Part shown: positions 1-31,295 of the stretch, piece after piece
Layout of the letters: each line of letters starts with the position of its first letter
How positions within the stretch are numbered: the first letter of the stretch is position 1
Source: a virus
DNA length: 54,825 nucleotides
Direction: 5' to 3' (one strand)
IMG/VR virus record: IMGVR_UViG_3300043446_004379
Coordinates: 1-54,825 of that record
The notes under the pieces: generated by a model
What the model was told of the DNA's origin: nothing
Seen by the model: the letters and a program-made list of their open reading frames with translations, nothing else
Database searches by the model: none
Made by a program: the position numbers and the translations under genes

Positions 1-1
1 A

Positions 2-142
2 AAGCATGATTTAGGCTTATCAATTGTTGAATTAAACAAAGAGCAGAGTAAATTTTTTAAAGATTATATAAGTCAAAAATGGTACAATCGTGGTATTATG
101 ATAAAAGAAATTGATATAATACGTGAGCAAGAAGGTTGGTAA
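2..142 (+). CDS. C-terminal fragment of an unidentified protein
   Basis: An open frame enters from the left edge and ends at TAA 140-142, giving 46 residues ending in EQEGW. The visible part is charged, with no motif I recognise. It lies 9 bases before the sulfotransferase-like gene on the same strand and is probably in the same operon. The start is outside the window, so no function is proposed. Confidence 0.55.
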   Translation, partial: KHDLGLSIVELNKEQSKFFKDYISQKWYNRGIMIKEIDIIREQEGW

Positions 143-151
143 TTATTACAC

Positions 152-835
152 ATGCTAAGTTCACGAATATGCGTTATTGGTTTGCCACGAAGCGGTAGCC
201 AATATGCAGTAGAGTTAATAAAATTAAATGGTTATTATCCATATTATGATTTAGTTGAACCGTTTGAGCCTGATAAACAAATTATTGATATTCAGCATAA
301 CAAGGTTATTCTTACTCAAAAAAGAAAGTGTGATGAACAACTTAGAATACCAAGAGCCTTACATAAACTTTCTATAGCAGATATAAATCAACCACTAATA
401 ACAAGAGTGTTTCCTGTAAAAGAGCAAAAAACACATTTTATAACTATAATAAAAACCTTAACTGATCTTAATTTTGATTTTGTTGTACTTAAAAGAAATA
501 ATATTGAGCATCATTTGCTTAGTTTTGCAGTTGCCTTAGCCACAGATATATGGACTAAATTTTCAAATACAAAAAATAAACCCATTATTGTAACTCATTT
601 TGCCCAAATTAAGTGGTTATACAATGAAATAACATCCTATAATAAACTCATTGAAGATTTAAATTTAAACTATGATATGTTGCATTATGAAACAATAGTA
701 GATGATTTGTCACGTGTGATGGGTTTTCTCATAAATACCAACGTCAAAATTTACAAACAAGCAGAAAGTAATCCATATGATCGTATTGCCAATGCTGACG
801 AAGTACGTGATTATATCCAAAAACTATTACAATGA
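152..835 (+). CDS. Sulfotransferase-like P-loop protein
   Basis: A 227-residue protein. Residues 10-18 (GLPRSGSQY) resemble the 5'-phosphosulfate (PAPS) binding loop of sulfotransferases, which lies near the N-terminus in that family. The rest fits an alpha/beta protein but I see no clear 3'-phosphate motif, so the family call rests mainly on the loop and overall size. If correct, it would move sulfate from PAPS to a sugar, peptide or small-molecule hydroxyl. Its stop overlaps the next start as ATGA (832-835), so it is translationally coupled to the radical SAM genes and probably works in the same pathway. It could instead be another P-loop transferase or kinase. Confidence 0.5.
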   Translation: MLSSRICVIGLPRSGSQYAVELIKLNGYYPYYDLVEPFEPDKQIIDIQHNKVILTQKRKCDEQLRIPRALHKLSIADINQPLITRVFPVKEQKTHFITIIKTLTDLNFDFVVLKRNNIEHHLLSFAVALATDIWTKFSNTKNKPIIVTHFAQIKWLYNEITSYNKLIEDLNLNYDMLHYETIVDDLSRVMGFLINTNVKIYKQAESNPYDRIANADEVRDYIQKLLQ

Positions 836-1791
836 CCAAAAAATATTTTAAGTTAGTCCATAATAATCCTGAACATGCTAATTGGTTTGTAGTCAATTGG
901 TGTATAGGAAATACTTGTAACTATAGTTGTAGTTACTGTCCTGAAGATTTACACAATGGAACTAATGCATGGCCTGACCCTAATGAAGTAAAAAGTTTTA
1001 TTGCACGTGTAGCAGACCAAGTTTTCCCTAAAAAACTGTATTTTGAATTTACAGGTGGTGAAGTTACACTATGGAAACATTTTGTAGATGTATGTCAATT
1101 TTGTAAAGACTTAGATATAAAAATTGGATTAATTAGTAATGGTAGTAGAACCGTGCGTTGGTGGGAAGAAAATAAACATTACTTTGATCATGTGTGTTTA
1201 AGCTTTCACCCTGAAGAAGCAGACTTTGATCATTTTGTAGAAGTTATTAAAACAGTACATAAAGATTTAAGAACTCATGTTAATATCATGATGAGTCCTG
1301 AAAAGTTTGAACAATGCTATACATTAGCTAACAAAATTAAAGCATTGGGCAATTTAAGCATGGCTTTACAACCACTTATACATGATTTTGGTGATACACT
1401 GTATGACTATACTGATATACAACATAAGATATTTGATCGTCAATATGAACTCATCATAAAACATATTAAGCACACAAAGGAGTTTCCATACTATCGTGGA
1501 GCTATGAGAAAAGTGTATGAAGATGGCACAGAAGAATCATTTACAGCACAGCGTTTTATTAATGATAAAACTAATGATTGGAGTGGATGGGATTGTTACG
1601 CAGGAGTAGAGCAGATTATTGTAGACATGGATGGTAAAATCTATCGTGGTTGGTGTAAAGAAGGTGGTTGCGTAGGTGATATATACGATAAAAATTTACA
1701 AATACCTGAGGATGCTGTAATTTGTTCAAAGAAAATGTGCCATTGTAATTTTGACATTATGAGCACAAAAGAATTAATTGGTGGACAATAA
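832..1791 (+). CDS. Radical SAM protein with C-terminal Cys-rich (SPASM-like) domain
   Basis: A 319-residue radical SAM enzyme. The CxxxCxxC cluster that binds the SAM-cleaving [4Fe-4S] centre is C29, C33, C36, and the GGE motif is at 75-77. The C-terminal about 65 residues hold a second cysteine set (WDCYAGVE, RGWCKEGGC, CSKKMCHC) that probably binds an auxiliary iron-sulfur cluster, as in SPASM/twitch enzymes. The same module occurs in the radical SAM proteins at 8200-9255 and 30308-31267. Substrate is unknown; SPASM-type enzymes usually modify peptides or proteins. It starts at ATG 832 inside the previous stop codon and overlaps the next gene, so it is in one operon with its neighbours. 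Confidence 0.85.
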   Translation: MTKKYFKLVHNNPEHANWFVVNWCIGNTCNYSCSYCPEDLHNGTNAWPDPNEVKSFIARVADQVFPKKLYFEFTGGEVTLWKHFVDVCQFCKDLDIKIGLISNGSRTVRWWEENKHYFDHVCLSFHPEEADFDHFVEVIKTVHKDLRTHVNIMMSPEKFEQCYTLANKIKALGNLSMALQPLIHDFGDTLYDYTDIQHKIFDRQYELIIKHIKHTKEFPYYRGAMRKVYEDGTEESFTAQRFINDKTNDWSGWDCYAGVEQIIVDMDGKIYRGWCKEGGCVGDIYDKNLQIPEDAVICSKKMCHCNFDIMSTKELIGGQ

Positions 1792-2938
1792 CAAAAAATT
1801 TTGTCCCTTACCGTGGATTAATTTATCAATAGACGTAAACGGTAGTCTGCGACCATGTTGTAGATATTTGCAACCCAATGCTCAAGTAGACTATAAATTA
1901 CCATACATTTATAACCAAGGTAATTTAGATAAACATTATAACAGTAGTGCTTGGAAAAGATTACGACGAGCATTTATTAATGGTGAACAACCACCTGAAT
2001 GTACAATGTGTTGGAATGATGAACAAGGTGGCGTAAAAAGTTATCGTGAAACCTTTGTTGAAAGTAAAAATATTGACATTAGTCATGTAGATTTTACGTC
2101 AGATACAGTATCAGCACCAATAACTTTAGACTTTAAACTTAATAACGTATGTAACTTAAAGTGTAGAATATGTGGTGCACAAGCGTCTTCAACTTATGCA
2201 AAAGAATATCAGATATTATGGAACATAGAATTACCTGATTTGAACTATTGGACACATGATAAAATTGTCAATACTCCAAATGAAGATGTGATTGCTAAGT
2301 GGGCACACAATATACAACACATTGAAATGACAGGTGGTGAACCGATGACTTCACCTGAAAACACTAAAATACTTAATATTCTTAGTGATGTAACCAATTT
2401 GTCTGATAAAACTATGTTGATTAATACTAATGTGACACATTGGAACCAACAATTAATTACTTACTTGACTAAATTTAAAAAAGCTACTATATGTTTAAGT
2501 ATAGATGATTTGTATGAACGACAAGAGTATCATCGTTACCCAAGTGAGTGGAGCGTAATAGAAAAAAATGTAGATAAATTCATTGAATTAAAAAATAGTT
2601 ACAGTAATATAGAAGTTATATTGTTTTGTACTGTAAGCAATTTTAATGTCTATTACTTACCTGAGTATGCAGCGTGGGCAGAGAGTAAAAATTTGTTTGT
2701 ACATTATAACATTTTGCATACAAGTGAAAAATATAGTATCAGAAATTTACCATTGCTTGTTAAAAGTAGGTTGCAAAATAGGTTAGAATCATTTCCAAAA
2801 ATACTTAATTTTATGATGTTACCCCAACAACATGGGCAGTGGGAAAAGTTTATTGAAGAAGTTGATGTGTTGGATAATTATCGTAATCAAAATTTTTCTG
2901 AAACTTTTCCAAAATGGAGTGAGGTACTAGGGTTATAA
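1781..2938 (+). CDS. Radical SAM protein with N-terminal twitch-like domain (1)
   Basis: About 385 residues. An N-terminal domain carries the pattern C9...CC27-28...CxxC75-78 (numbered from a TTG three bases upstream), followed by the radical SAM core with CxxxCxxC at C125, C129, C132 and GGEP at 186-189. This order, auxiliary-cluster domain before the core, matches the 'N-terminal twitch' radical SAM family. No ATG is available near the beginning; GTG 1781 (or TTG 1778) is used, overlapping the previous gene, and translation is probably coupled. Substrate unknown. The surrounding paralogues suggest several steps on one substrate class or several related substrates. Confidence 0.82.
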   Translation: MDNNKKFCPLPWINLSIDVNGSLRPCCRYLQPNAQVDYKLPYIYNQGNLDKHYNSSAWKRLRRAFINGEQPPECTMCWNDEQGGVKSYRETFVESKNIDISHVDFTSDTVSAPITLDFKLNNVCNLKCRICGAQASSTYAKEYQILWNIELPDLNYWTHDKIVNTPNEDVIAKWAHNIQHIEMTGGEPMTSPENTKILNILSDVTNLSDKTMLINTNVTHWNQQLITYLTKFKKATICLSIDDLYERQEYHRYPSEWSVIEKNVDKFIELKNSYSNIEVILFCTVSNFNVYYLPEYAAWAESKNLFVHYNILHTSEKYSIRNLPLLVKSRLQNRLESFPKILNFMMLPQQHGQWEKFIEEVDVLDNYRNQNFSETFPKWSEVLGL

Positions 2939-2945
2939 CTAAATA
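2939..2945 (+). promoter_or_regulatory. Late promoter box CTAAATA
   Basis: CTAAATA resembles the T4 late promoter box TATAAATA. It ends six bases before ATG 2952, so transcription would begin at or next to the start codon. Confidence 0.5.
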
Positions 2946-2951
2946 AAATTT

Positions 2952-4367
2952 ATGAATAAAGTCATAGAAATAAAAACTGCAGGAGATATAAAAAACACTG
3001 TATGTCAATTTGCTTGGGATTACAGTGTATTAAACATATCACGTAATGAGCTACGTAATTGTTGTCGTTCACGCAGTCACAAAATTTTACCTGAAGATTG
3101 GCGTTTAGAACGGGGATTGTTTACTCATTTTCCACCTATTGTTAATGTACGCAAAGACATGCTACGTGGTATACGTAATGAAGCGTGTAATGTATGTTGG
3201 GATATAGAAGATAGTGGAGCAAAAAGTGCAAGAACAAGTTGGGATAGATTTGTAAATTTTATTCAATCTAAAAAACTATGGCCTAATTTATCACGTGATG
3301 AATTAAAAGTCAAGTTACAAGATTTAAACGATGATGAAATAGAAATGTTAAGTCGTTTGCCTCATACAAATATGATTGAAATAAGTTTAGGCAATATATG
3401 CGATTTAAAATGTTTGTATTGTCATCATCATTATAGTTCACAATGGGCAGCAGAACGTCTTAAATATGGTGAAATTAAACCTGAAGAAATGGAAATAGAA
3501 CTTCCTAAAATTAAAGATACAGTGTATGAAACATATTGGTGGGATTGGTTTGAAAACGAAAGTGGTTACAATACATATTGCATTAACTTTATTGGTGGTG
3601 AACCATTAATTATAGAAAAATTTTACACTTATGCTGACAGAATATGTAAGTTTTATGATGACCACAAAACCGAACAGAAGAATATTGATTTTAGTATTGT
3701 AACAAACTTTAATACACCAAAGAAGTTTTATGATCGTTTTTTAGATACTACACTGCGCATTGTGTCAGTGGAACAATTTACTCTAGATTTTAATGTAAGT
3801 TGCGAAAGCATTGGTCAACGTGCTGAATATATTCGTACAGGAACAGATTGGAATGTAATGACAGAAAATATTGAGCATTACATTGAGTTTATTAATTTAA
3901 TTGACCCTGAACAACAGCGTATTATTTTCAACTTACAAATTGCTCTAAATGCTTTGTGTATATCAGATTTGCCTAATTTTATACGTTGGATTATAGATTT
4001 ACAAGAGCGAACCAATCGTAAAATACATTTGCGTCAAAACCAAATTAGTCATCCTCATTGGTTAAGTCCTTATATTTTACCCACAGAATATTCAAAATAT
4101 GTCAGTGAAGCCATTGATATTATGGCTGACTATTTAAAACAACCTAAGATGATGGTTGCAAACTATAATTTGTTTGGAAGATGGGATCATTACATGAGTT
4201 TTTTACAAACAGTTAAACGTGGTTTAGAAAATCCTGAAAAAAATAATAAAGCAAAACGTGAATTTGCTGAAAATGTCATTAAAATGCAACAACGTAGAAA
4301 CATACATTTTGAACCAACGTTTCCTGAGATGGTTCCTTTTTTAATTGATTGTAAAAGATTATTATGA
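2952..4367 (+). CDS. Radical SAM protein with N-terminal twitch-like domain (2)
   Basis: 471 residues, the longest of the group. N-terminal auxiliary cysteines are C18, CC37-38 and CxxC79-82. The radical SAM cluster is C150, C154, C157 (CDLKCLYC) and the GGEP motif is 215-218. An insertion of about 60 residues separates the two domains compared with its neighbours. It most resembles the minus-strand gene at 6848-8203: both share a CxxAWDY N-terminal block, a CCR pair and the HYSxQW segment after the cluster. It overlaps the next gene by four bases (ATGA). Substrate unknown. Confidence 0.82.
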   Translation: MNKVIEIKTAGDIKNTVCQFAWDYSVLNISRNELRNCCRSRSHKILPEDWRLERGLFTHFPPIVNVRKDMLRGIRNEACNVCWDIEDSGAKSARTSWDRFVNFIQSKKLWPNLSRDELKVKLQDLNDDEIEMLSRLPHTNMIEISLGNICDLKCLYCHHHYSSQWAAERLKYGEIKPEEMEIELPKIKDTVYETYWWDWFENESGYNTYCINFIGGEPLIIEKFYTYADRICKFYDDHKTEQKNIDFSIVTNFNTPKKFYDRFLDTTLRIVSVEQFTLDFNVSCESIGQRAEYIRTGTDWNVMTENIEHYIEFINLIDPEQQRIIFNLQIALNALCISDLPNFIRWIIDLQERTNRKIHLRQNQISHPHWLSPYILPTEYSKYVSEAIDIMADYLKQPKMMVANYNLFGRWDHYMSFLQTVKRGLENPEKNNKAKREFAENVIKMQQRRNIHFEPTFPEMVPFLIDCKRLL

Positions 4368-5710
4368 ATTGGGAAAAATATCAAGTAGCAATAGCTAACA
4401 ATAACTTGTTTCAAGCTATTGATGAGGATTATGATTGGGGAATAAGCAACACAGAGGATTGGGAATCTAAAATACCAAGTAATTTCTGTTCCGCACCATT
4501 TATAAATATGGAAATTACAGCATCAGGATCAATAAGACCTTGTTGTAAGTATGATGGTTTTAAAAGTAATGATTCAGATGATACTTTAAAAACTATTTCA
4601 TTAGAAAATTTATATAATAGTAAGGAATTGAACACATTGCGTGATCAATTTATGCGCAACGAAAAACCAAAAAAATGCGAGATATGTTGGGTTGAAGAGG
4701 ATAAGTCAATAAAAAGTTTAAGGCAAATATCTAACTATAATTGGATACATAAGCCTTCTTGGGGCAAACCACCTGAGCCAAAAAAAGTAAATTTTAACCA
4801 AGCATTTAAAGGACAACCTACTAACATAGATTTAAAATTAAGCAATCTATGTAATCTTAGATGCAGGGTGTGTGGTCCGTGGTCAAGTAGTCAATGGATT
4901 AAAGACTATAACGAATTGGTATGGGCAGATAAAAGGACTATTAAAGTATGGAGTGAGAATGCAAAAGAAAAACTGTTAGTCAATGAGGAAAATACAAAAA
5001 TTTTATTGAATTGGGCTGATGGACTTTTGCGCTTTGAATTTTTTGGTGGCGAACCTATGATGCAACAAGAGCATGATAGAATTTTAGACTTGATGATTGA
5101 AAAAGGTGCTTCTAAAAAACAAGACTTATTATATAATACTAATGGTACTATTTTTAATCAAGATATTATTGACAAGTGGGTAAACTTTGATTTTATTGTC
5201 GTTAATTTTAGTATTGATGATGTTGGAAAAAGATTTGAATATCAAAGAAAAAATGCTGTTTATGCAGAAGTACTCTCCAACTTACAAAACTATAAACTAA
5301 TATCATCTTATTATCAGTTTAAACATAAGTTTTATATTTACATCACAGTAAGTATATATAATGTATTTTACTTGGACAATATTTTTGATGAGTTATCTGA
5401 ATTAGAGTTTCCATTTATATTAAATATCTTACATCACCCTCAAAACTTGTCTATTATTAATATGCCTAATCATGTTAAAAAAGTTATAACACAGAAATTA
5501 AGCAACTATAAATATGTTAATTATCATGCACAAACCGTAAAAATTCATGACATATTAGAGTTTATGAATTCTAAAGAGTATGACAAAAAAGAATGGATAA
5601 AATTTTGTAATTATAATACCCAAATTGACGTTTTGCGACAAGAAAAATTTAGCGATGTTTTTTCAGAATTTTATGAAGAAATAAAAGAGGACATTCCAAG
5701 AATATTATGA
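4364..5710 (+). CDS. Radical SAM protein with N-terminal twitch-like domain (3)
   Basis: 448 residues. Auxiliary cysteines C42, CC60-61, CxxC105-108 precede the radical SAM cluster C163, C167, C170 (CNLRCRVC) and GGEP at 228-231. About 40 residues precede the first cysteine, more than in the paralogues. It is coupled to both neighbours by ATGA overlaps at 4364-4367 and 5707-5710. Like the others it would cleave SAM to a 5'-deoxyadenosyl radical; what it acts on cannot be told from sequence. Confidence 0.82.
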   Translation: MNWEKYQVAIANNNLFQAIDEDYDWGISNTEDWESKIPSNFCSAPFINMEITASGSIRPCCKYDGFKSNDSDDTLKTISLENLYNSKELNTLRDQFMRNEKPKKCEICWVEEDKSIKSLRQISNYNWIHKPSWGKPPEPKKVNFNQAFKGQPTNIDLKLSNLCNLRCRVCGPWSSSQWIKDYNELVWADKRTIKVWSENAKEKLLVNEENTKILLNWADGLLRFEFFGGEPMMQQEHDRILDLMIEKGASKKQDLLYNTNGTIFNQDIIDKWVNFDFIVVNFSIDDVGKRFEYQRKNAVYAEVLSNLQNYKLISSYYQFKHKFYIYITVSIYNVFYLDNIFDELSELEFPFILNILHHPQNLSIINMPNHVKKVITQKLSNYKYVNYHAQTVKIHDILEFMNSKEYDKKEWIKFCNYNTQIDVLRQEKFSDVFSEFYEEIKEDIPRIL

Positions 5711-6864
5711 AAGTATTATGTAGCGCACCATTTAATAGTTTAACTATTAATCCTGATAAAAGTGTAAACCCATGTTGTGGATGGGATTATAAAGATTCTT
5801 GTGGAAACTTAAACAAAAGTACGATACAAGAAATAAGAACAAGTGATTTTATGAAAAGTGTTAAACAGCACATGCTTGATGGTGTATGGCATCCTAGTTG
5901 TCGTTTTTGCAAACAGCGTGAAGAACAAACTAATACAAGTGTTAGGCTGAATGTTTATAGTAAAGTTCCTTATGACCCATCTGAAAAAATTTTATACTTA
6001 GAATATAGTAGTACGAATACCTGTAACTTAGCTTGTGCTATGTGTAATGAAGATTGGAGTAGTGCATGGGTTGAATTAGCTAACAAACATGGATGGAATA
6101 ATGACGGTGTTCATAAAATTGAACCAATTAACCGAGATATTGCAAGAAAATTATTAGATAATATTGACCTATCAAATTTACAAACATTGTGGTTAAAAGG
6201 TGGAGAACCATTTCTTAATAAAGAAAATGTTTTAGTATTACAAAAGCTTAAAGAAATTGACCAACTTAAGCATGTTAATATTATGGTTACTACTAATTGT
6301 ACTGTCATTAATGAACCTATATTAGAATATATTGAACAAGCAAAAAGTGTAATTTTTGTTTGTAGTATTGATGCAATTGGTGAATTAAACACTTGGATAA
6401 GATTAGCACCCAATACCAAATACACTAGTGATATTGAGAATATTCAAAAGACTTTAAACAGATGGAGTAAACTCTCAAACATTGATCATTTTTCACTAAG
6501 CTGTGCAATATGTTCATATAACATTTTTAATTTACATGAACTTAAAAATTGGTGGGAAAATAACCCAATTCATAAAAAACGACCATCTATAAAATTTAAT
6601 CACTTTGTTATACGTCCTGAAATGCAATCTGCACGAATACTTACACAACCTACTGTAGATGCACTTATTGAATATTATCGGATGCTTAACACAAATGATT
6701 GTTATACAGGTGTCATTGATTATCTTAGCCAAGGTGCATGTACTGACCATATGCATAACTTATGGATAGAGCGAACTGCACAGTTAAACAAATTGAGAAC
6801 TAAGAATATAGAGGATATTGTACCACAACTTAAAAGTGAGTTAGTGCCTATTGCACCCAAGTAA
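5707..6864 (+). CDS. Radical SAM protein with N-terminal twitch-like domain (4)
   Basis: 385 residues. Auxiliary cysteines C5, CC23-24, CxxC65-68; radical SAM cluster C106, C110, C113 (CNLACAMC); GGEP at 165-168. It is the most compact member, starting almost directly at the first auxiliary cysteine (MKVLCSAPF). It is last in the plus-strand operon, and its 3' end overlaps the 3' end of the convergent minus-strand radical SAM gene by 17 bases, so there is no room for a terminator between the two operons. Confidence 0.82.
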   Translation: MKVLCSAPFNSLTINPDKSVNPCCGWDYKDSCGNLNKSTIQEIRTSDFMKSVKQHMLDGVWHPSCRFCKQREEQTNTSVRLNVYSKVPYDPSEKILYLEYSSTNTCNLACAMCNEDWSSAWVELANKHGWNNDGVHKIEPINRDIARKLLDNIDLSNLQTLWLKGGEPFLNKENVLVLQKLKEIDQLKHVNIMVTTNCTVINEPILEYIEQAKSVIFVCSIDAIGELNTWIRLAPNTKYTSDIENIQKTLNRWSKLSNIDHFSLSCAICSYNIFNLHELKNWWENNPIHKKRPSIKFNHFVIRPEMQSARILTQPTVDALIEYYRMLNTNDCYTGVIDYLSQGACTDHMHNLWIERTAQLNKLRTKNIEDIVPQLKSELVPIAPK

Positions 6865-8203
6865 CAAACTCAGGAAAAGTCTTTAAAAATTCTGTATTTC
6901 TACGCTTGTCCAATTCTTCAAAAAATATACCAACTTCCTCTCCTGTATGCCACATATTACTCATAGGTGGGTTGTTTAATATAGCATCACGTGTTTGTTC
7001 TAAAAAATCTCTAAATACAACCCAATTATGATAAGGTTTGCAATCTTTATACTTTTCATCTGCTAATAACGAATTAAACGTAGCTATAGGTTTTTCAAAA
7101 TAACTTGCAAACTCTTTAGGAGCACACATTGGACTTTGTTGTGTAGGCCAAGTAACAATGTTTCTATGAATATGTATGGGATAGTATGCTTCTATACAAT
7201 GTTTGAAATAATCCGTGTACTTGTATAATGATGGTAAACCAATTAGGTTAATACACGGCATAAAATCTATAGTGACTAAAGCTTGCAATGATAATAGTTT
7301 TTCAAGATTATTCTTAAATCTATTCCATTTTACTCCATATCTTATGTATTCAAGTTCTTCACCAATATTTTCTCCACTTACTTGTATGATGACATTAAAA
7401 TGTTCATTGAGTTTTGGTAAGTATTCTAAAAATTTTTGAAAATACGCTTCAGGAGTATTCATATTAGTAGTAATGCATAACTCAATTTTACTAATACCAT
7501 CACCATTTAATAAATTTTCTACAGGTTGTAATCTTGGGGATGCATTATGTATTTCTATAAGCTTGTCAAAGCATTCGTAAATTAAATCAGTAATGAGTGG
7601 TTCGCCGCCAATAAAACCAAACCTAATTAATTGTTTCATACCAACATCTCTGTACCATTGCCAAAACAATGCTTCTACTTTAGGATCACGTGCGCCAATT
7701 TGACTGCTTTCACGTGTCATGGGTATATTAAATTTTTTCTTTTCTGCGTACCATTGTGTGCTATAATGTTCACTACAATAAGTACACTTTGCATCACACG
7801 TATTATTCAACACAATTTCAATGATGTTTGCATAAGAGCTTAATTCATAACTTGGGTTGTCAATTAAATCACTTTTGGTAATTGGTAATTCACCTGTATT
7901 ACGATGCATATACTCTTCAAATTTAATGTCATTACGTGCGCTTTTGAATCCTTTATTTTCCAAACTCCAACAAGTGTTACAATCTTTATGTTGATGATTT
8001 TGTAGTAAGCTACGTCTACGTTCAATATGTTCAGGTAAATTTGAAAATAATTCACTACCATAACCTCGTGCCATTTCAGGTGTAATTTTAGTTCGTTCAG
8101 TTCTACAACAATAGGTAAAACTTGGTTCACTTATGTAAAATAGTAAGTAATCCCAAGCATAATTACATAATGTATTAGGACGGTCAGGATAAATTGGTAT
8201 CAT
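6848..8203 (-). CDS. Radical SAM protein with N-terminal twitch-like domain (5)
   Basis: 451 residues on the minus strand. Auxiliary cysteines C13, CC32-33, CxxC75-78; radical SAM cluster C136, C140, C143 (CDAKCTYC); GGEP at 199-202. It is closest in layout to the plus-strand protein at 2952-4367. Its ATG overlaps the stop of the upstream minus-strand gene (8200-8203), so the two are a coupled pair. The convergent arrangement with an otherwise similar plus-strand set suggests part of the cluster was duplicated and inverted. Confidence 0.82.
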   Translation of the reverse strand: MIPIYPDRPNTLCNYAWDYLLFYISEPSFTYCCRTERTKITPEMARGYGSELFSNLPEHIERRRSLLQNHQHKDCNTCWSLENKGFKSARNDIKFEEYMHRNTGELPITKSDLIDNPSYELSSYANIIEIVLNNTCDAKCTYCSEHYSTQWYAEKKKFNIPMTRESSQIGARDPKVEALFWQWYRDVGMKQLIRFGFIGGEPLITDLIYECFDKLIEIHNASPRLQPVENLLNGDGISKIELCITTNMNTPEAYFQKFLEYLPKLNEHFNVIIQVSGENIGEELEYIRYGVKWNRFKNNLEKLLSLQALVTIDFMPCINLIGLPSLYKYTDYFKHCIEAYYPIHIHRNIVTWPTQQSPMCAPKEFASYFEKPIATFNSLLADEKYKDCKPYHNWVVFRDFLEQTRDAILNNPPMSNMWHTGEEVGIFFEELDKRRNTEFLKTFPEFVTWVQ

Positions 8204-9255
8204 TTACGGTCACCGAACAATACATAATGTTCAGGAGCATATCCTTCCATAACTTCTGCACCACTATCATCTTCAGGTTTAGAAAACTTGTTTTGCATAC
8301 TACCACGAATAGGTACAAATGCCCATGTGCATAATTCAGTAAAGTGTGGTATACGTTTTAATTCTTCTTCTAGCGATAATGATTCTTCAACATATTGGGG
8401 TGGCATCATAAATTTTACTTCAAGATGACCAACATTAAAGTTATTAGCTTTATACTTTTCATCTGTTACAGCTTCTACAACTTTAACAAATCTTGCTCTA
8501 TCATAAAACTCAAAGTGTACGGATAAGTTTAAATCACCATAATGTATAACTTCACGATAATAATCAGGTTTACGTGAACCATTACTATGTAAGCTAATAT
8601 GATGACCAAATGCATTTAAGTACCGTAACCAATCTAAAAAGTCTTTGTTAGTAGTAGGTTCACCCCCACTTATAATAAAGTTTACGCTATCACCATGCAT
8701 AAACTTTTCTTCAAGTAAGTTAGTGGCTTTAATTAAATCTTCTAATGGTTTGTGTGGGTCAGTATTATTGTGTATCCAAGGCCAACAGTATGAACAATCA
8801 TAGTTACAACGTCTGCCAATTTCCCAATATATTTGTTTTTGGTTACTAGCATGTGTGCGCTCCATTGCTACAAAGTTTGTTAGGTCAGGATTGTGTCTGT
8901 CCATCAAAGTATCTAATTCTTGACTTTGACGCAATAGTATGATTTTCTTTTCATCTGTTGCTTTAGGTATGAACAAGTCTGCGCCACATGAACACACGTT
9001 TTTTGTGCAATCAATCCAAGTATTGGGTACTTCAAACGTATCCCATACACTGCCTAATTGTCCACCTACACGACAACTAGCAGTCCACACATTGCCATCC
9101 ATATCAATGAATAGGCTATCTACTCCTGCGCCACATTTCCAACCTTGTAAGTAATTAAGTTTTGCACCGACTAATTCATCAGTGCTCCAATCTCGCCAAT
9201 AACCTTGCTCATCATATGTTCTAATTGGTTTACCTGCAGTCTTGTGTAAGCTCAT
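8200..9255 (-). CDS. Radical SAM protein with permuted domain order (Cys-rich domain first)
   Basis: 351 residues. The auxiliary cysteine module comes first (C41, C61, C83, C88, C90, including CGAGVDSLFIDMDG and a CRVGG segment), then the radical SAM core with C150, C154, C157 (CNYDCSYC) and GGEP at 197-200. The same auxiliary module is C-terminal in the proteins at 832-1791 and 30308-31267, so the domain order is reversed here. It starts at ATG 9255, seven bases after a perfect late promoter box on the minus strand, and is the first gene of a two-gene minus-strand operon. Confidence 0.82.
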   Translation of the reverse strand: MSLHKTAGKPIRTYDEQGYWRDWSTDELVGAKLNYLQGWKCGAGVDSLFIDMDGNVWTASCRVGGQLGSVWDTFEVPNTWIDCTKNVCSCGADLFIPKATDEKKIILLRQSQELDTLMDRHNPDLTNFVAMERTHASNQKQIYWEIGRRCNYDCSYCWPWIHNNTDPHKPLEDLIKATNLLEEKFMHGDSVNFIISGGEPTTNKDFLDWLRYLNAFGHHISLHSNGSRKPDYYREVIHYGDLNLSVHFEFYDRARFVKVVEAVTDEKYKANNFNVGHLEVKFMMPPQYVEESLSLEEELKRIPHFTELCTWAFVPIRGSMQNKFSKPEDDSGAEVMEGYAPEHYVLFGDRK

Positions 9256-9262
9256 AATAAGA

Positions 9263-9270
9263 TATTTATA
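9263..9270 (-). promoter_or_regulatory. Late promoter box TATAAATA
   Basis: An exact TATAAATA on the minus strand, seven bases upstream of ATG 9255. It would drive the minus-strand radical SAM pair and lies in the 44-base divergent gap to the giant repeat protein. Confidence 0.65.
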
Positions 9271-9299: not shown

Positions 9300-12200
9300 A
9301 TGTACGTTGAGCAAGATGAATTAAACCGTAGAGAAGAATTATGGGAACAAGGGTATTGGGAAATACCTGATGGGTTAGATACAAGTCAGTTTAATTTTAA
9401 TTGGCGACCTGAACGGTTTGACCGTCCTTATATACATGTATTTGGTACCCAATGGCAGCGCAGTGGTGGTCCGCAGTTCGTTGTTCCTAACCACGAAGGT
9501 ATAAAATTCCAACCAAGTCAATCAGCAATTAAGTTACCTGATAATAAACATTGGGTTATTCACAAAGAATTTACTGTTGATTTTGATTTTAGTTGGCATC
9601 CCGATGTATATGAACCTCCGTATATTTGGACATTTGGTAATCAATATGTGAGCGCATATGAAATGCCAACAGTAGAGTATGTTGTGGAAGGTGCCAAGGA
9701 AAGAAAATATATTACGGATATTATAGCGACCCTAGTAAGTGAGGAAACAGATTGGAAAATATTATATCCTATTAATGTAGATAAAAAATATTTAAAATGG
9801 TACCCACATCCCTATGAACCACCTTATATCTATGTATGGGGTAATCAATATTTAAGCGCAGAAGAAATGCCAACGGTTGAATATCATCAACCTAATGCAA
9901 CTCAACGAAAATATGTTAATGATTTTCAATTTAGGTTAGTTGGGCAACCTAGCTCATTTGCGTCTGACAATGCGCTTGATAGGTATAAAGATTATAAAAA
10001 TTGGGTTATTCATGAAGATATAGAAGATTTTCAACTTGATCCTAAATGGGTCCCACACCCACATGATCCACCTTATATCTATGTGTGGGGTAATAAATGG
10101 TACAGTGGCACTATTAAACCAACTATTGAATATCGTGTAACTAATGCTGTAAATCACAAGTATATGGGCGATACGATTGAATTAAAACCATCCAAATGTT
10201 GGGTAGAGTTATTGCCTATTGATTTAAATAAATTTGATTTGACATGGCGACCTGACCCACGTGAACCACCCTTTATCTATGTATGGGGGCATAAACATAC
10301 ACCTGTAGAAATTGAACCTGCATTAGAATATCATTGCGAAGGTGCGACACAAAGAAAATATATTACAGATAGTTTTGTTACTTTATTACCTGACTTATCC
10401 AAATGGAAAAAGCTATTACCTATTGACGAAAGTAAGTTTGATTTTAGTTGGCGACCTGATCCACGTGAACCTGCTTATGTTTACGTATGGGGTCATAAAT
10501 TTGCACCTGTAGAGATTCAACCTGCACTTGAATATCACGTTGAAGGTGCAACAGAGCGCAAATATATGTCAGAAATAGTAGAACTACTACCTGATATGAC
10601 TAATTGGAAACTATTATTACCAATTAATGCAGATAAATTTGATTTTAGTTGGCGACCTGACCCACGTGAACCTGCATTTATCTACGTATGGGGAAACAAA
10701 TATAATGATATTGTGATAGATCCTGTATTAGAATATCATGTTGATGGGGCAACGGAACGAAAATATATGCCTGAACCTGTTGAATTACTACCTGATATGA
10801 CAAATTGGAAAGTATTAATTGCAGGAGCAGAATTTAGTTATGATTGGAGACCTGATCCACGTGAACCACCATTTATCTATGTATGGGGTAATAAATGGAA
10901 CGATGCAGCTACTGAACCCACTGTAGAATACCATTGTGAAGGTGCTACCGAATACAAATATATGTCAGACATGGTTGCAACTTTACCACAAGATTTGACC
11001 AATTGGACTGTGCATACCGATGAAGATCGTCAAACATTTGATTTTAGTTGGCGACCTAACCCACATAGTCCACCACAAATTTATCAATGGAGCGAGGGCG
11101 GTCCTACCTTCACCGTAGAAGGGGCAACTGATATTGTTTACATGATACGTGATGCAAAAACAACTATTACAAAAACTGCACAATATATTATAGAAACTAC
11201 TTTAGAAGATTTAATTGAGCAACATCCTAATGAAGAATTTTGGGCATTAAATCCTGATATAGATTACTCACAATTTGATTTTAGTTGGAAACCAAATAGC
11301 GAAAACTTTAGGCATATAAACGTATTTGGCAACGAACAATCAAAAAACACGCAAACTTATTATGTTAATAGTGTAATGTATCATCGTGGTTATAAGGAAT
11401 ATAATTACGTAGAAAGTTCAAGCATCATTGATACAAAATTGGATATCTTTTTTATTGATAAAAGCAATAAATCTAGTAAAGAAAATCTACAAAAGTTGCT
11501 AGTTCGTTACCCTAATATACAAACAACAAGATACTTACACAATTGGGTTGATACGATTACTAGATGTGTGAAAAAAAGTAGTAGTAAATTTGCATGGATT
11601 GTTAGTAGTGAACTTGATTATACTGATTTTAAGTTTGATTTTTATCCTGCACCATGGCAAGAAAGTATGATTCACGTTTTTGGAACACAATGGGGACAAT
11701 GGGGTAATACTTATTTTATTAATACTGAGTTATGGGAATCACATATTGGACATGTCAAAATTATAGAACACCTAAAAAACATTAATCACGTACGTGGCAG
11801 AATTGCTCAAGTTAAAGAAAATCATTATGAAACATTATTGATTACCATGGGCAATTATACTAATAAAATAGAGGCTGATTATACGATAGATTATCGTGGT
11901 AGTTATGTTGCAACAATAGATGCGTGGTTAAATAAAAATCCATTATTAAAAGAGAAGAAAAATTACCATATATGGGTTTGCAGTACTATATGTACATATG
12001 ATGATTTTGATTTTACATATCAAACTGACCCATTTCAGCGAGAACAACTACATGTGTTTGCTAGTAAATATGAAAAAATAACACAAAAATTTGGTGATAC
12101 TTTTTTATTAAATGTTAGTCAGTATGTTTTAGATAGACAATCTTTTGATAAACTAGAGGATTACCCACAAAAAGTAAATTATATAACACATTTAGCAACT

Positions 12201-13172
12201 AATAGACAGCAACATCCTGTACTACATCATGATTATGATACACATGTTGAAGCAGTAAAAAACTACGATTTTAATGAATATCCATATGTTCAGTTTGTTT
12301 GTGCGGATAATAATCATGCATGTAACTATGTTCCTAGTCTATGGGATGAAACACATCGTACAATTGCTGTATTAGATTATTCAACAACGGATATTATTGT
12401 GCCAAACATTGTTCAAGATAAAGTAGTAACTGAACTGTATGATTATCCATACATTGAAAAAATAGCTAAAGTAACATCATCACATGCACTAGATATTGTT
12501 TTTATTAGTAATGGCGAACCTAATGCTGAAGAACATTGGGAACATCTTAATAAAGTTATTAAAGAAAATCGTAATGCAAAGAATAGATTAATACGAGTGG
12601 ATGGGGTAAATGGTCGTGTAGCTGCGTACCATGCTGCTGCAAATACAAGTGAAACACCATGGTTTTTTGCAGTATTTGCAAAGTTGCGAGTTAATCCAAC
12701 ATTTGATTGGAATTGGCAACCTGACCGTTTACAGCAACCTAAGCATTACATTTTTACTGCAATTAATCCTATTAATCGTTTGAACTATGGACACCAAGCT
12801 ATGATTGCGTATAATAAGCGCATAACCCTAGCCAATACAGGTATTGGGTTAGACTTTACTTTGGATAATGAGCATGAGGTTGTTAATATTAATAGTGGTA
12901 TTGCAATTTACAATACAGACCCATGGACAACATGGCGAACTGCATTTCGTGAAGCAGTCAAGTTACAAGATTTGGTCAGCAAAGGAACAGATACAAACGC
13001 AGTAAAACGTTTAGCACGTTGGTGTGGACAAGGTATTGGTGAACATGCTGAATGGAGCCAACGTGGTGCTAATGATGGTGTAGCATATTATAAAGAAGTT
13101 GATGGTGATTTAGATCAATTGAAATTGAGTTATGAATGGGATTGGTTATATCAAAGATTTAGTAATTTATGA
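9300..13172 (+). CDS. Giant aromatic-repeat protein with glycosyltransferase-like C-terminal region
   Basis: 1290 residues. Residues about 30-615 hold nine tandem units of about 68 residues. Each has the core FDFSWRPDPREPPFIYVWGN, then a PTVEYH...GATERKYM segment and a linker ending in a Trp. Three or four degenerate units follow up to about residue 950. Residues about 1030-1230 (DIVFISNGEPN, IRVDGVNGRVAAYHAAA, TPWFFAVFAKL) look like a GT-A-fold glycosyltransferase core, and FDWNWQPD within it is a divergent copy of the repeat core. The repeats may therefore be multiplied pieces of a glycosyltransferase-like domain. No signal peptide is visible. Function is unknown: it could be a sugar- or surface-binding structural protein, or a substrate of the neighbouring radical SAM enzymes. 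It sits divergently from the minus-strand radical SAM pair. Confidence 0.7.
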   Translation: MYVEQDELNRREELWEQGYWEIPDGLDTSQFNFNWRPERFDRPYIHVFGTQWQRSGGPQFVVPNHEGIKFQPSQSAIKLPDNKHWVIHKEFTVDFDFSWHPDVYEPPYIWTFGNQYVSAYEMPTVEYVVEGAKERKYITDIIATLVSEETDWKILYPINVDKKYLKWYPHPYEPPYIYVWGNQYLSAEEMPTVEYHQPNATQRKYVNDFQFRLVGQPSSFASDNALDRYKDYKNWVIHEDIEDFQLDPKWVPHPHDPPYIYVWGNKWYSGTIKPTIEYRVTNAVNHKYMGDTIELKPSKCWVELLPIDLNKFDLTWRPDPREPPFIYVWGHKHTPVEIEPALEYHCEGATQRKYITDSFVTLLPDLSKWKKLLPIDESKFDFSWRPDPREPAYVYVWGHKFAPVEIQPALEYHVEGATERKYMSEIVELLPDMTNWKLLLPINADKFDFSWRPDPREPAFIYVWGNKYNDIVIDPVLEYHVDGATERKYMPEPVELLPDMTNWKVLIAGAEFSYDWRPDPREPPFIYVWGNKWNDAATEPTVEYHCEGATEYKYMSDMVATLPQDLTNWTVHTDEDRQTFDFSWRPNPHSPPQIYQWSEGGPTFTVEGATDIVYMIRDAKTTITKTAQYIIETTLEDLIEQHPNEEFWALNPDIDYSQFDFSWKPNSENFRHINVFGNEQSKNTQTYYVNSVMYHRGYKEYNYVESSSIIDTKLDIFFIDKSNKSSKENLQKLLVRYPNIQTTRYLHNWVDTITRCVKKSSSKFAWIVSSELDYTDFKFDFYPAPWQESMIHVFGTQWGQWGNTYFINTELWESHIGHVKIIEHLKNINHVRGRIAQVKENHYETLLITMGNYTNKIEADYTIDYRGSYVATIDAWLNKNPLLKEKKNYHIWVCSTICTYDDFDFTYQTDPFQREQLHVFASKYEKITQKFGDTFLLNVSQYVLDRQSFDKLEDYPQKVNYITHLATNRQQHPVLHHDYDTHVEAVKNYDFNEYPYVQFVCADNNHACNYVPSLWDETHRTIAVLDYSTTDIIVPNIVQDKVVTELYDYPYIEKIAKVTSSHALDIVFISNGEPNAEEHWEHLNKVIKENRNAKNRLIRVDGVNGRVAAYHAAANTSETPWFFAVFAKLRVNPTFDWNWQPDRLQQPKHYIFTAINPINRLNYGHQAMIAYNKRITLANTGIGLDFTLDNEHEVVNINSGIAIYNTDPWTTWRTAFREAVKLQDLVSKGTDTNAVKRLARWCGQGIGEHAEWSQRGANDGVAYYKEVDGDLDQLKLSYEWDWLYQRFSNL
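9390..11150 (+). repeat. Nine tandem coding repeats of about 200 bases
   Basis: Repeat cores begin near residues 31, 95, 164, 244, 312, 380, 447, 512 and 580 of the giant protein, a spacing of 64-80 residues. Units 5-8 (about 10233-10990) are the most alike, sharing WRPDPREP and YVWG[NH]K, which indicates recent duplication; the flanking units have diverged. Confidence 0.8.
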
Positions 13173-13223: not shown

Positions 13224-13538
13224 ATGAAATATTTTATACTTGGTTTAATAGCAGCGATAGGTTTATCTTTTAGTGCACAAGTTGCTGCACACGGACAAAG
13301 AGTTCATGCTCATGCTAGACACTTTCATCATCCACATCATTTTCATCGTCATCATTGGGTTGCTCCTGCAATTATTGGTGGTGCAGTAACATATGCTATT
13401 ACTAGACCCTATATTGTAGATCAACCCGTTGTTGTGCAACAAGTACCACAATCACCCGTAGTGCATTGCACAGAATGGAAAGAAATATTACAACCAAATG
13501 GAACAATTGTACAAGAACGTACATGTAATCAACAATGA
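13224..13538 (+). CDS. Small exported His-rich protein
   Basis: 104 residues. Residues 1-22 form a signal peptide with a likely cut after AQVAA. A stretch at about 25-45 is very rich in His (HARHFHHPHHFHRHHW), then a short hydrophobic segment and a C-terminal part with two cysteines (HCTEW and RTC) that could form a disulfide in the periplasm. The His cluster could bind metal. It has a GGAGG ribosome site and overlaps the next gene by four bases. No family recognised with confidence. Confidence 0.65.
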   Translation: MKYFILGLIAAIGLSFSAQVAAHGQRVHAHARHFHHPHHFHRHHWVAPAIIGGAVTYAITRPYIVDQPVVVQQVPQSPVVHCTEWKEILQPNGTIVQERTCNQQ

Positions 13539-13933
13539 AAAAAGTATTAATTGCGCTAGCTATTTTAAGTTGTAGTACAAGTTACGCACAAAGCTACAAT
13601 CAAGATGTAGCGGTGGTTGTTGCACGACAACCACGTTTCAACACAGTGTATCAACAAACTTGTACTACGGTTCCTCTAGAGCGTAGGTCACAAGGTGGTA
13701 GTGTACTTGGAGCAATAGCAGGTGCTGCAATTGGAAATCAAATAGGTGGTGGCAGTGGTAGAGATATTGCAACTGCAGCAGGTGCGGTTATAGGTAGTCA
13801 GTTAGGTGGACAAAACGACAACACTACCGTTGATATGCAAACACGTTGTAGTCAGCAACCCATGCAAGTACAATCAGGTGAAATTGTTACTTTTGAATAT
13901 CGTGGACGTAGATTTACTCAAATATTTAACTGA
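13535..13933 (+). CDS. Exported glycine-zipper (2TM) protein
   Basis: 132 residues with a signal peptide (about 1-19, ending SYAQ) and a glycine zipper at about 50-85 (GAIAGAAIGNQIGG, then AGAVIGSQLGG). This is the pattern of the glycine-zipper 2TM / 17-kDa surface antigen-like envelope proteins of Proteobacteria. These proteins insert in or associate with the outer membrane, and some stabilise envelopes under stress. Overlapping starts couple it to the His-rich protein. It looks acquired from a host and may alter the envelope of infected cells or act in lysis. Confidence 0.65.
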   Translation: MKKVLIALAILSCSTSYAQSYNQDVAVVVARQPRFNTVYQQTCTTVPLERRSQGGSVLGAIAGAAIGNQIGGGSGRDIATAAGAVIGSQLGGQNDNTTVDMQTRCSQQPMQVQSGEIVTFEYRGRRFTQIFN

Positions 13934-14261: not shown

Positions 14262-15386
14262 ATGACTTTTACTAAACGTAAACTAATGCATACTGCATTA
14301 GCTGCAATTACTGCTTTTACACTAGCAAGTTGTGGAAAAAAAGAAGAAGCAAAACCTGCTGAAGCACCAAAAGCAACAGAACCTCTTAAGGTAGGATTTA
14401 TCTATGTCGGACCTGTTGGCGATGCGGGGTGGACATTTGCTCATGATAATGGTCGTAAGCACATTGAAGAAAAATTCGGTGATAAGATCAAAACTAGTTT
14501 TGTGGAGAAAGTACCTGAAGGTGCTGATGCTGAACGTGTTATTCGTGATTTAGTTAGCCAAGGTAATAAACTTATTTTTGCTACATCATTTGGTTTTGGT
14601 GATGCTATGGAAAAAGTAGCTAAAGATCATCCTGATGTTAAGTTTGAACATGCTACAGGTTATAAGACAGCAGAAAATCTACGTGTATATGAAGCAAAAT
14701 TTTATGAAGATGCTTACATGGCAGGTATTGTTGCAGGTAGTATGACAAAAACTAATACACTAGGATTTGTAGCAAGTTTCCCTATTCCTGAAGTATTACG
14801 TAATATTAATGCTTTTACATTGGGTGCAAGAAGTGTCAATCCTAAGGTTACTACTAAGGTTGTTTGGGTGAATACATGGTTTGATCCACCTAAAGAAGGT
14901 GAAGCAGCACAAGCTTTGATCAATCAAAAAGCAGATGTATTGTTACAAAATACAGATTCAACTGCGGTATTGCTTACTGCTGAGAAAAATGGTAAGTTTG
15001 CTTTTGGTTGGGATAGTGACATGAGCGCATTTGCTCCTAAGGCACATCTTGGATCAGCCATTGTAAATTGGGGACCATACTACGAAAAAGCTGTTAATGA
15101 TGTACTAAATGGTACATGGAAAACCTCTGATACAAAATGGGGAACCAAAGAAGGTGCTAATGATTTAGTTAAAATCAATGATGTTGTTAGCGATACTGCC
15201 AAGAAAAAGGTTGATGAAGTTAAGGCAGGATTAAAAGCAGGTACATTTGAAGTATTTAAAGGACCACTTAAAGACAATACAGGTAAAATTGTATTAGAAA
15301 AAGATGTGGTTGGTGATGATGCATGGAAAGGTAGGATTAATTTTTACATTGAAGGTGTAGAAGGTAAGATTCCAAGCGGTAAATAA
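14262..15386 (+). CDS. BMP family substrate-binding lipoprotein (PnrA/TmpC-like)
   Basis: 374 residues. A lipoprotein signal peptide ends in the lipobox LASC (C24), then a linker rich in Lys/Glu/Ala, then the BMP fold starting LKVGFIYVGPVGDAGWT, with YEAKFYEDAYMAGIVAG further on. Family members are periplasmic receptors of ABC importers; several bind purine nucleosides. Full-length. No permease or ATPase genes are nearby, so it would have to work with a host transporter, or bind nucleosides or signals on its own. Codon use and promoter context match the phage genes around it, so it is not a contig error. It is unusual in a phage. Confidence 0.85.
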   Translation: MTFTKRKLMHTALAAITAFTLASCGKKEEAKPAEAPKATEPLKVGFIYVGPVGDAGWTFAHDNGRKHIEEKFGDKIKTSFVEKVPEGADAERVIRDLVSQGNKLIFATSFGFGDAMEKVAKDHPDVKFEHATGYKTAENLRVYEAKFYEDAYMAGIVAGSMTKTNTLGFVASFPIPEVLRNINAFTLGARSVNPKVTTKVVWVNTWFDPPKEGEAAQALINQKADVLLQNTDSTAVLLTAEKNGKFAFGWDSDMSAFAPKAHLGSAIVNWGPYYEKAVNDVLNGTWKTSDTKWGTKEGANDLVKINDVVSDTAKKKVDEVKAGLKAGTFEVFKGPLKDNTGKIVLEKDVVGDDAWKGRINFYIEGVEGKIPSGK

Positions 15387-20009: not shown

Positions 20010-21188
20010 ATGCGTATAGCAATTATTGGTGCAGGTATTGCAGGAGTAGTACCTGCATATTTTTTGTCTAAACGTGGACATGATGTTACCATTTTTGAAC
20101 AAGAACGCTACGCTGCAATGCGTACAAGCTATGCTAATGGTGGACAAGTCAGTGTAAGCAATAGCGAAGTATGGACAACATGGGCTAATGTTTTGAAAGG
20201 ATTAAAATGGATGTTAAAAAAAGATGCTCCATTATTGATTCACCCTACATTAGACTTAGATAAAATAAAATGGATTATCAAATTTTTACAACATACTGCT
20301 AGCAATGTTTATAAACAAAATACGATTGAAACTATTAAGCTTGGTCTAGAAAGTAGAGCGTTATATAAACAAATTATAAAAGATGAAAATTTAGAATTTG
20401 ATCAAAGCAAAAGTGGTATTTTACATATTTACAAAGAACAAAAATACTTTAATGCTGCTTTTGATGCCAAAGATATCTATGAAAATCATGGGTGTGAATG
20501 GAAAACAATTACTAATCTTAAAGAAATAATTGACCTTGAACCAAACCTAAAAGATATGGAAGGTTTAATTGGAGCAGCATGGACACAAGATGATTGGGTT
20601 GGTGATATTCATAAGTTTTGTAAGGGTTTACTTGATACAATACGTCTTAAGTATAATGCATGCGTTTCATTTAATAATGGAATTAATGATCCACGGTTAT
20701 TACTTGGTGGATTTGATAAAGTAGTTATAGCAGCAGGTGTTGAAAGTGTTCACTTGGCTAAAGTATTAGGTGAAAGTTTACCTATATATCCTGTAAAAGG
20801 ATATAGTATTACCATTGATGCCCAAGATGTAAAGTCTTATAATGCTATGCCTAAAGTAAGTTTGTTGGATGATCAAGCAAAAATTGTAACTGCAACATTA
20901 GGAACAAGATTGCGTGTAGCAGGTACAGCAGAATTATGTGGTTATAATCGTGACATTACAAGAAGTAGAATTGAGCCATTATTAAATTGGATAAATGAAA
21001 ACTTTCCAAGTATAGATACAAGCTGTTATAGTAGTTGGGCGTGTTTGCGACCAATGACTCCAAATATGATGCCCATTGTGCGTGAAAGTAAAGTTAAAAA
21101 TATTTACTATCATACAGGACATGGACATTTAGGTTGGACAATAAGTCCTGCAACTGCAATGAATTTAGTAAATCAACTTGAAAATTGA
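20010..21188 (+). CDS. dadA: D-amino acid dehydrogenase (DadA-like FAD oxidoreductase)
   Basis: 392 residues. The FAD dinucleotide-binding motif is GAGIAG at 7-12, then FEQ (adenine ribose Glu region), TSYANGGQ at about 49-56, and near the C-terminus GHGHLGWTISP. This is the DadA pattern. The enzyme oxidises D-alanine and other D-amino acids to keto acids and feeds electrons to the respiratory chain. It directly follows ahpD (three-base gap). In a phage it could release nutrients from peptidoglycan D-Ala or support respiration late in infection. Related glycine/sarcosine oxidases are possible but fit less well. Confidence 0.88.
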   Translation: MRIAIIGAGIAGVVPAYFLSKRGHDVTIFEQERYAAMRTSYANGGQVSVSNSEVWTTWANVLKGLKWMLKKDAPLLIHPTLDLDKIKWIIKFLQHTASNVYKQNTIETIKLGLESRALYKQIIKDENLEFDQSKSGILHIYKEQKYFNAAFDAKDIYENHGCEWKTITNLKEIIDLEPNLKDMEGLIGAAWTQDDWVGDIHKFCKGLLDTIRLKYNACVSFNNGINDPRLLLGGFDKVVIAAGVESVHLAKVLGESLPIYPVKGYSITIDAQDVKSYNAMPKVSLLDDQAKIVTATLGTRLRVAGTAELCGYNRDITRSRIEPLLNWINENFPSIDTSCYSSWACLRPMTPNMMPIVRESKVKNIYYHTGHGHLGWTISPATAMNLVNQLEN

Positions 21189-31267: not shown

Positions 31268-31272
31268 AAAAA

Positions 31273-31279
31273 TATTTAG
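31273..31279 (-). promoter_or_regulatory. Late promoter box CTAAATA (minus strand)
   Basis: Ends five bases before GTG 31267. It is back-to-back with the plus-strand box at 31283. Confidence 0.5.
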
Positions 31280-31282
31280 TAC

Positions 31283-31290
31283 GATAAATA
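31283..31290 (+). promoter_or_regulatory. Late promoter box GATAAATA
   Basis: Ends five bases before ATG 31296. Divergent with the minus-strand box three bases away. Confidence 0.55.
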
Positions 31291-31295
31291 GCAAT

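Follow-up and report, generated by a model that had tools for sequence, protein, structure and literature searches.

Radical SAM (rSAM) genes have been repeatedly reported in aquatic phages without a known role (PMC5332604, PMC7029224, PMC9301287). A T4-like marine phage genome published in 2017 (TARA_ERS488813_N000010; PMC5332604) contains 12 of them, and in pelagimyophages a hypervariable island described in 2020, the host-recognition cluster, combines rSAM cassettes with tail fibres and glycosyltransferases; it was suggested that these glycosyltransferases modify the O-chain of the host and keep out other phages (PMC7029224). Here we describe a block of seven rSAM genes (positions 832-9255; R1-R5 on the plus strand, R6-R7 on the minus strand) in the IMG/VR record IMGVR_UViG_3300043446_004379, a stretch of 54,825 bp referred to as the window. 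The record is classed in IMG/VR as a virus fragment, and its terminase, structural protein, UvsX, ssb and DNA polymerase genes identify it as phage DNA. Along the block, a gene of the family f10 is followed by a sulfotransferase-like gene, the R1-R5 run, the oppositely oriented R6-R7 run and a large gene on the plus strand, BIG (Table 1).

Like the 2017 genome, the window belongs to a large aquatic phage rich in rSAM genes; the available parts of that report give the gene count and a context of Fe-S metabolism, and describe no R1/R7 pair, f10 or BIG. In the case of the pelagimyophages, the cluster lies between VrlC and gp14, whereas the window ends before either of these genes, and BIG and the permuted R7 are not described in the available parts of that study. 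The Vibrio phages K566 and K567 (OZ196521 and OZ196593) show N_Twi-like genes at three matching places each, but with 25% identity to the window and no match to R1, R7 or BIG. At the K566 locus (149838-180926), about 4.4 kb hold three genes annotated as rSAM, with PagP about 6 kb further on, and this phage is possibly a candidate laboratory model.

The first-pass annotation, which had been made from the sequence of the window, regarded a block of this size as unusual, a view that did not survive comparison. Twenty contigs were sampled by their terminase only, without regard to rSAM content, which makes a small and fragmentary sample; the ten of at least 60 kb carry 8, 16, 13, 11, 1, 2, 0, 0, 1 and 7 rSAM genes, and other related contigs have up to 16. 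Within these ten, BIG is present only together with at least two rSAM genes (6/6 versus 0/4; Fisher p 0.005). Given the rSAM-rich phages published in 2017 and 2020, the density, although real, has therefore been seen before. A search of the open-access literature, which did not extend to subscription papers, turned up no account of the permuted pair, of f10 or of BIG.

Domain order and ancestry of the radical SAM enzymes

The most novel element of the block is the pair formed by R1 and R7, which, judged from their sequences, are circular permutations of each other. R1 carries a cysteine domain C-terminal to its core (C255-x19-C275-x22-C298-x4-C303-x-C305), and R7 carries one of near-identical spacing N-terminal to the core (C41-x19-C61-x21-C83-x4-C88-x-C90); in R8, the eighth rSAM protein of the window, the auxiliary domain follows the core as in R1. 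A hidden Markov model (HMM) of the C-terminal domain of R1 matches the N-terminus of R7 homologues (E about 1e-17) and the reverse search agrees. Comparison of the R1 and R7 profiles aligns Cys domain with Cys domain (E 3e-19) and core with core (E 2e-31), and the crossed comparisons of Cys domain with core give no match. The permuted order is kept in the examined homologues of R7 and R7b (11 and 10 loci, some of them cut by contig ends). In the tree, R7-type proteins form one group (SH-aLRT 91), read here as a clade of single origin, and the R1, R7 and R8 types are jointly separated from the N_Twi enzymes with a support of 100. Monophyly of the R1 type is unsupported, which leaves both domain orders as candidates for the ancestral state.

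The pair offers a natural experiment on the working of the auxiliary-cluster domain, which it carries at opposite ends of the catalytic barrel. R1 and R7 retrieve, by profile or fold, the solved SPASM/twitch enzymes YydG/EpeE, SuiB, SkfB, BlsE and SpeY, with which they share the partial-barrel core; however, the auxiliary domain is N-terminal in R7 and in the N_Twi enzymes, and the sequence matches span only part of the core. The AlphaFold2 (AF2) model of R7 has its best PDB match in BlsE, a glycoside-acting rSAM enzyme.

A PF04055 scan of the whole record gave exactly eight rSAM genes, all above the curated cut-off, and the core motif Cx3Cx2C accompanies PF04055 in 8/8 proteins; in a per-protein scan, R3 scored 29.0 bits, slightly below the cut-off of 29.5, with 208 bits against NF033640 (cut-off 170). 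Within R1-R7, neighbouring genes either overlap by 4-17 bp or stand no more than 13 bp apart, and the largest gap of the block, between R7 and BIG, is 44 bp, so that R1-R7 make up two coupled runs converging at R5/R6. This layout, with an eighth gene apart, is the one that the first-pass annotation had proposed. Seven of the eight genes lie contiguously among about 70 genes, an arrangement that is not attributable to chance (0/200,000 random placements).

The same annotation had assigned a C...CC...CxxC twitch-like domain before the core to five of the enzymes, as is the case for R2-R6. All five pass NF033640 (N_Twi_rSAM), with alignments spanning about 1-397 of the 398 model positions, and show C-x(17-18)-CC...CxxC ahead of the core Cx3Cx2C, whereas R1, R7 and R8 stay below the cut-off (15.9, 26.7 and 24.6 bits). 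PF13186 (SPASM) is found N-terminally above its gathering score of 21.5 bits in R2, R4 and R5, with no match in R1, R3, R6, R7 or R8. No described function was found for the NF033640 family, of which 14 control genomes contain no member above the cut-off; what distinguishes the window is the presence of five such paralogues in one phage block.

Paralogues among the eight proteins are at most about 30% identical, and for each of R1-R7 an orthologue from a different phage is a nearer match than every paralogue of the window, which argues for old duplications, an inherited block and turnover of the N_Twi genes. R8 is a full-length relative of R1, and its nearest relative is only distant. The block order is the same in a related contig, L080 (IMGVR 3300023179_006727), whose R1 and R7 are 89% and 93% identical to those of the window. 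Phylogeny had been named as the place where separate acquisitions of unrelated genes might come to light; that is not the pattern seen, the tree showing two clades of old paralogues (N_Twi and R1/R7/R8) and L080 having the block in the same order. Another contig (3300046804_004848), 137,959 bp long, begins to overlap the window inside R3 and matches its R7 and BIG with 100% identity, which indicates that a much longer assembly exists of apparently the same phage.

R1 and R7 nearly always occur together: R7 is present in 15 of the 16 contigs that carry R1 and are long enough around it to reveal an R7, G017 being the exception and one contig cut near R1 having been set aside. In distant phages the two genes are adjacent, co-directional and usually overlapping, whereas a variable number of N_Twi genes lies between them in several relatives, as in the window. 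The dN/dS ratios, which are rough because dS is 1-2 in most pairs, are lowest in R1, R7 and R3 (0.04-0.08), followed by the other N_Twi genes (0.10-0.22) and the sulfotransferase-like gene (0.36); at the level of sequence, the rSAM enzymes are under purifying selection. An accumulation of mobile or selfish cassettes, each enzyme having its own target and no joint pathway, would fit the widely varying number of N_Twi genes beside R1 and R7 and the low identity between paralogues. However, the strong linkage of the genes, the coupled overlaps, the identical order in L080, the co-occurrence of R1 and R7 and the low dN/dS make it the least probable of the explanations weighed here.

Outside the related contigs, R1 and BIG gave no match in 50,697 phage records, and R7 only a core-level match of 30%. 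Among GTDB genomes, at the sensitivity of the search used, R7 hardly occurs, with one real locus and seven core-only matches. The locus, L104, is a contig of the metagenome-assembled genome (MAG) Gammaproteobacteria MED685, with the order f16-f14-f10-R1-N-R7-N, phage-type structural genes, a 2OG oxygenase and a cytidylyltransferase, and has the appearance of a phage sequence that was sorted into a bacterial bin; the MED685 MAG contains ten NF033640 genes above the cut-off.

A single bacterial-genome locus on a phage-like contig does not favour the idea that these are auxiliary genes of host metabolism, making a cofactor or small molecule (PQQ, haem d1 or queuosine) independently of the virion. 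There are weak superfamily-level HMM matches to many rSAM classes, and rSAM genes of Lake Baikal phages have been interpreted as PQQ synthesis (PMC7678222), but no cofactor equivalog is matched with a score close to its cut-off and the block is tied to f10, BIG and tail genes, so that this explanation, already weakened, seems improbable. The N_Twi proteins of the window have no listed PQQ maturase match, which suggests that PQQ annotations such as the Lake Baikal ones may need rechecking. On the other hand, viperin-like antiviral nucleotide chemistry, or hypermodification of DNA or nucleotides, is called to mind by viperin-family matches to the cores of R1, R7 and R8 (59.2, 41.7 and 47.6 bits against the prokaryotic viperin model NF038283) and by QueE and TYW1 among the fold matches. 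These viperin matches span only part of the core and fall below the cut-off of 180, the block is placed with tail genes and not with DNA metabolism, and QueC-like neighbours are weak only, all of which renders such a role more improbable still. R1 is also below the cut-off of 200 of the STM4011 family rSAM model NF038073 (62.4 bits, best stretch at residues 28-170).

Partner genes and a possible role in surface decoration

The gene f10, which encodes a GT-A-like protein, lies immediately upstream of R1 in 31 of the 45 distinct R1 loci, several of the others being at contig edges or lone pairs elsewhere, and f10 relatives keep a DGDN/DADN (DxD-like) motif. The f10 profile detects homology in the C-terminus of BIG (E 1e-32), a protein with no match in Pfam, PHROGs or a PDB sequence search. 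An AF2 model of its last 724 residues (pLDDT 87.5) finds its best Foldseek matches in GT-A proteins, namely K4CP (E 6e-5), LH3, ArnC, RmlT and SunS, and BIG is on this basis predicted to have a GT-A fold, an assignment of fold only. This C-terminal part is common to BIG relatives, among which the number of repeats varies, with lengths of 530-2713 aa for the longer members. With R1 and R7 as core, a near-constant f10 and BIG, what was a list of anonymous oxidoreductases becomes a delimited system, open to expression and assay. BIG is followed in the window by two small genes, 13224-13538 (+) and 13535-13933 (+), whose products have signal-peptide-like starts; one is His-rich, of a family that recurs near other BIG genes, and the other is of the glycine-zipper outer-membrane type.

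In relatives, f10 is preceded by f43, f14 and f16 and then by tail-fibre or virion-structural genes, one of which carries a Peptidase_G2 autoproteolysis domain. A carbamoyltransferase gene lies immediately upstream of BIG in 31 loci of relatives, and the recurrent additional genes include UDP-glucose dehydrogenase, DegT, epimerase, CTP_transf_3 (cytidylyltransferase), 2OG oxygenase, sulfotransferase, SGNH-like and B12-rSAM genes; going by their sequences, the recurrent neighbours are mostly sugar-tailoring genes. The gene at the head of the plus-strand run, which the first-pass annotation had called sulfotransferase-like, has no direct Pfam match, to Sulfotransfer families or any other, but a search with the profile of its family finds a homologue in a related locus (L084, 10953-11708; E 1.5e-66) that lies just under the cut-off of PF00685 Sulfotransfer_1 (E 1.4e-4; 21.8 versus 22).

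The reading that we favour, with a likelihood that we would put a little short of even, is that the block is a phage glycan- or glycoprotein-decoration island, centred on the R1-R7 pair and belonging to the host-recognition (tail-fibre) region. It is built on gene order, the permutation and co-occurrence of R1 and R7, the position of the relatives' loci next to tail fibres, the sugar-handling neighbours and purifying selection. The predicted GT-A fold of BIG, its presence only beside two or more rSAM genes in the ten larger contigs, the DegT and epimerase genes next to R8, the BlsE match of R7 and the pelagimyophage clusters speak for it as well. The GT-A-type proteins f10, f14, f16 and BIG would build or bind a glycan or glycosylated protein, the first three acting as glycosyltransferases and BIG binding or presenting such a molecule. 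The rSAM enzymes would tailor it through H-atom abstraction (oxidation, epimerisation, deoxygenation or cross-linking), in addition to sulfation, carbamoylation and methylation, with R1 and R7 cooperating as a pair on the same substrate and R2-R6 as exchangeable specificity enzymes. Finally, the product may be displayed on the surface of the infected cell, leading to superinfection exclusion as proposed for the pelagimyophage glycosyltransferases, or on the fibres of the phage itself. If the island does re-decorate cell surface or fibres, radical chemistry would join phage-host recognition. A more specific version, which we hold to be doubtful, has R1 and R7 as an obligate pair of enzymes that form a hetero-complex or pass a single substrate between them, so that a radical centre and an auxiliary cluster from each would act on one glycan or glycoprotein delivered by f10/BIG; if true, such an assembly line for phage surface chemistry would have no described counterpart.

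Several points weigh against decoration. All the activities and substrates that it assumes are putative. The window is cut inside f10, and adjacency to tail fibres is known from relatives only. No glycosyltransferase family of Pfam is matched by f10, f14 or f16, and BIG has FAKL at the position of the DGDN/DADN motif, so that its C-terminal domain lacks the DxD metal site and may bind rather than transfer. The fold matches of BIG are to a general fold, with low whole-model TM-scores that come from its multi-domain nature. Among SPASM/twitch rSAM enzymes of known function, peptide substrates are at least as frequent as sugars, and the nearest solved relative of R1 is a peptide epimerase, YydG.

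These last points bring in the main rival, the maturation of a peptide or protein, either akin to ribosomally synthesized and post-translationally modified peptides (RiPPs) or of a virion protein, in which the rSAM enzymes would cross-link or epimerise the W/P/Y-rich repeats of BIG or the tail fibres. The N_Twi enzymes have SPASM/twitch domains and the solved SPASM relatives SuiB, SkfB and YydG act on peptides; moreover, BIG is only 44 bp from R7 and varies in repeat number, and in relatives the island follows tail-fibre genes. However, the block itself, to which the search for a RiPP precursor gene was confined, has no room for one, its gaps being of 44 bp at most; the repeats of BIG are predicted to be folded GT-A-like elements; and a long BIG is absent from distant R1/R7 loci. 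We consider this rival unlikely, if a serious contender. A variant in which BIG is a repeat substrate that scales with the number of rSAM genes was rejected, since its length shows no positive correlation with that number (rho -0.89, n=6).

The first-pass annotation had proposed a multi-step pathway of peptide or protein modification. The pathway idea is partly supported by the multi-enzyme island, the auxiliary-cluster rSAM enzymes, the sulfotransferase-like gene and dN/dS of 0.04-0.22. Its peptide or protein substrate was assumed and the neighbours are mostly sugar-handling, and generic protein modification is better replaced by a decoration island for host recognition.

Coordinates and other genes of the window

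Table 1. Position, strand and supporting evidence of the genes of the block and of R8.
Feature	Position	Strand	Evidence
f10, 3' end (46 aa + stop)	1-142	+	Frame translation matches C-terminus of L080 8341-9273
Sulfotransferase-like gene; PRSGSQ P-loop-like motif; fast evolving	152-835	+	Family profile to L084 10953-11708
R1, core then C-terminal SPASM-like domain	832-1791	+	PF04055 E 3.6e-10; alignment; domain HMM test
R2, N-terminal SPASM/twitch rSAM, TTG start	1778-2938	+	NF033640 293 bits; PF13186 residues 9-79
R3, N-terminal twitch rSAM	2952-4367	+	NF033640 208 bits
R4, N-terminal SPASM/twitch rSAM	4364-5710	+	NF033640 315 bits; PF13186 residues 42-109
R5, N-terminal SPASM/twitch rSAM	5707-6864	+	NF033640 211 bits; PF13186 residues 5-69
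R6, N-terminal twitch rSAM; 17 bp overlap with convergent R5	6848-8203	-	NF033640 202 bits
R7, circularly permuted R1-type enzyme (from sequence), N-terminal SPASM-like domain then core	8200-9255	-	Domain HMM; clade; AF2 pLDDT 81.6
BIG, 1290 aa; predicted GT-A-like C-terminal ~720 aa and N-terminal W/P/Y-rich repeats	9300-13172	+	AF2; Foldseek; f10 homology
R8, R1-type rSAM, core and C-terminal Cys domain	30308-31294	-	29% identity to R1 over 310 aa, E 2e-38

Scans of the window for Sigma-70 promoters and terminators gave fewer matches than in shuffled sequence, and the T4-type late promoter TATAAATA showed no enrichment (4 copies versus 11 expected by shuffling). One copy of TATAAATA, at 9263-9270 (-), falls inside the 44 bp that separate the divergent genes R7 and BIG.

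R8 adjoins genes for a DegT aminotransferase (29087-30319, PF01041) and an epimerase (28216-29184, PF01370), and the region 28216-31294 is possibly a second sugar/rSAM locus of the same phage. Elsewhere, a Bmp/PnrA-like ABC transporter substrate-binding protein is encoded at 14262-15386 (+) (PF02608, E 6e-57), with no other transporter genes among the scanned proteins. Further genes encode a FAD-dependent oxidoreductase (DAO) at 20010-21188 (+) (PF01266, E 3e-55) and a Gram-negative porin, here phage-encoded, at 21563-22582 (+) (PF13609, E 2e-37).

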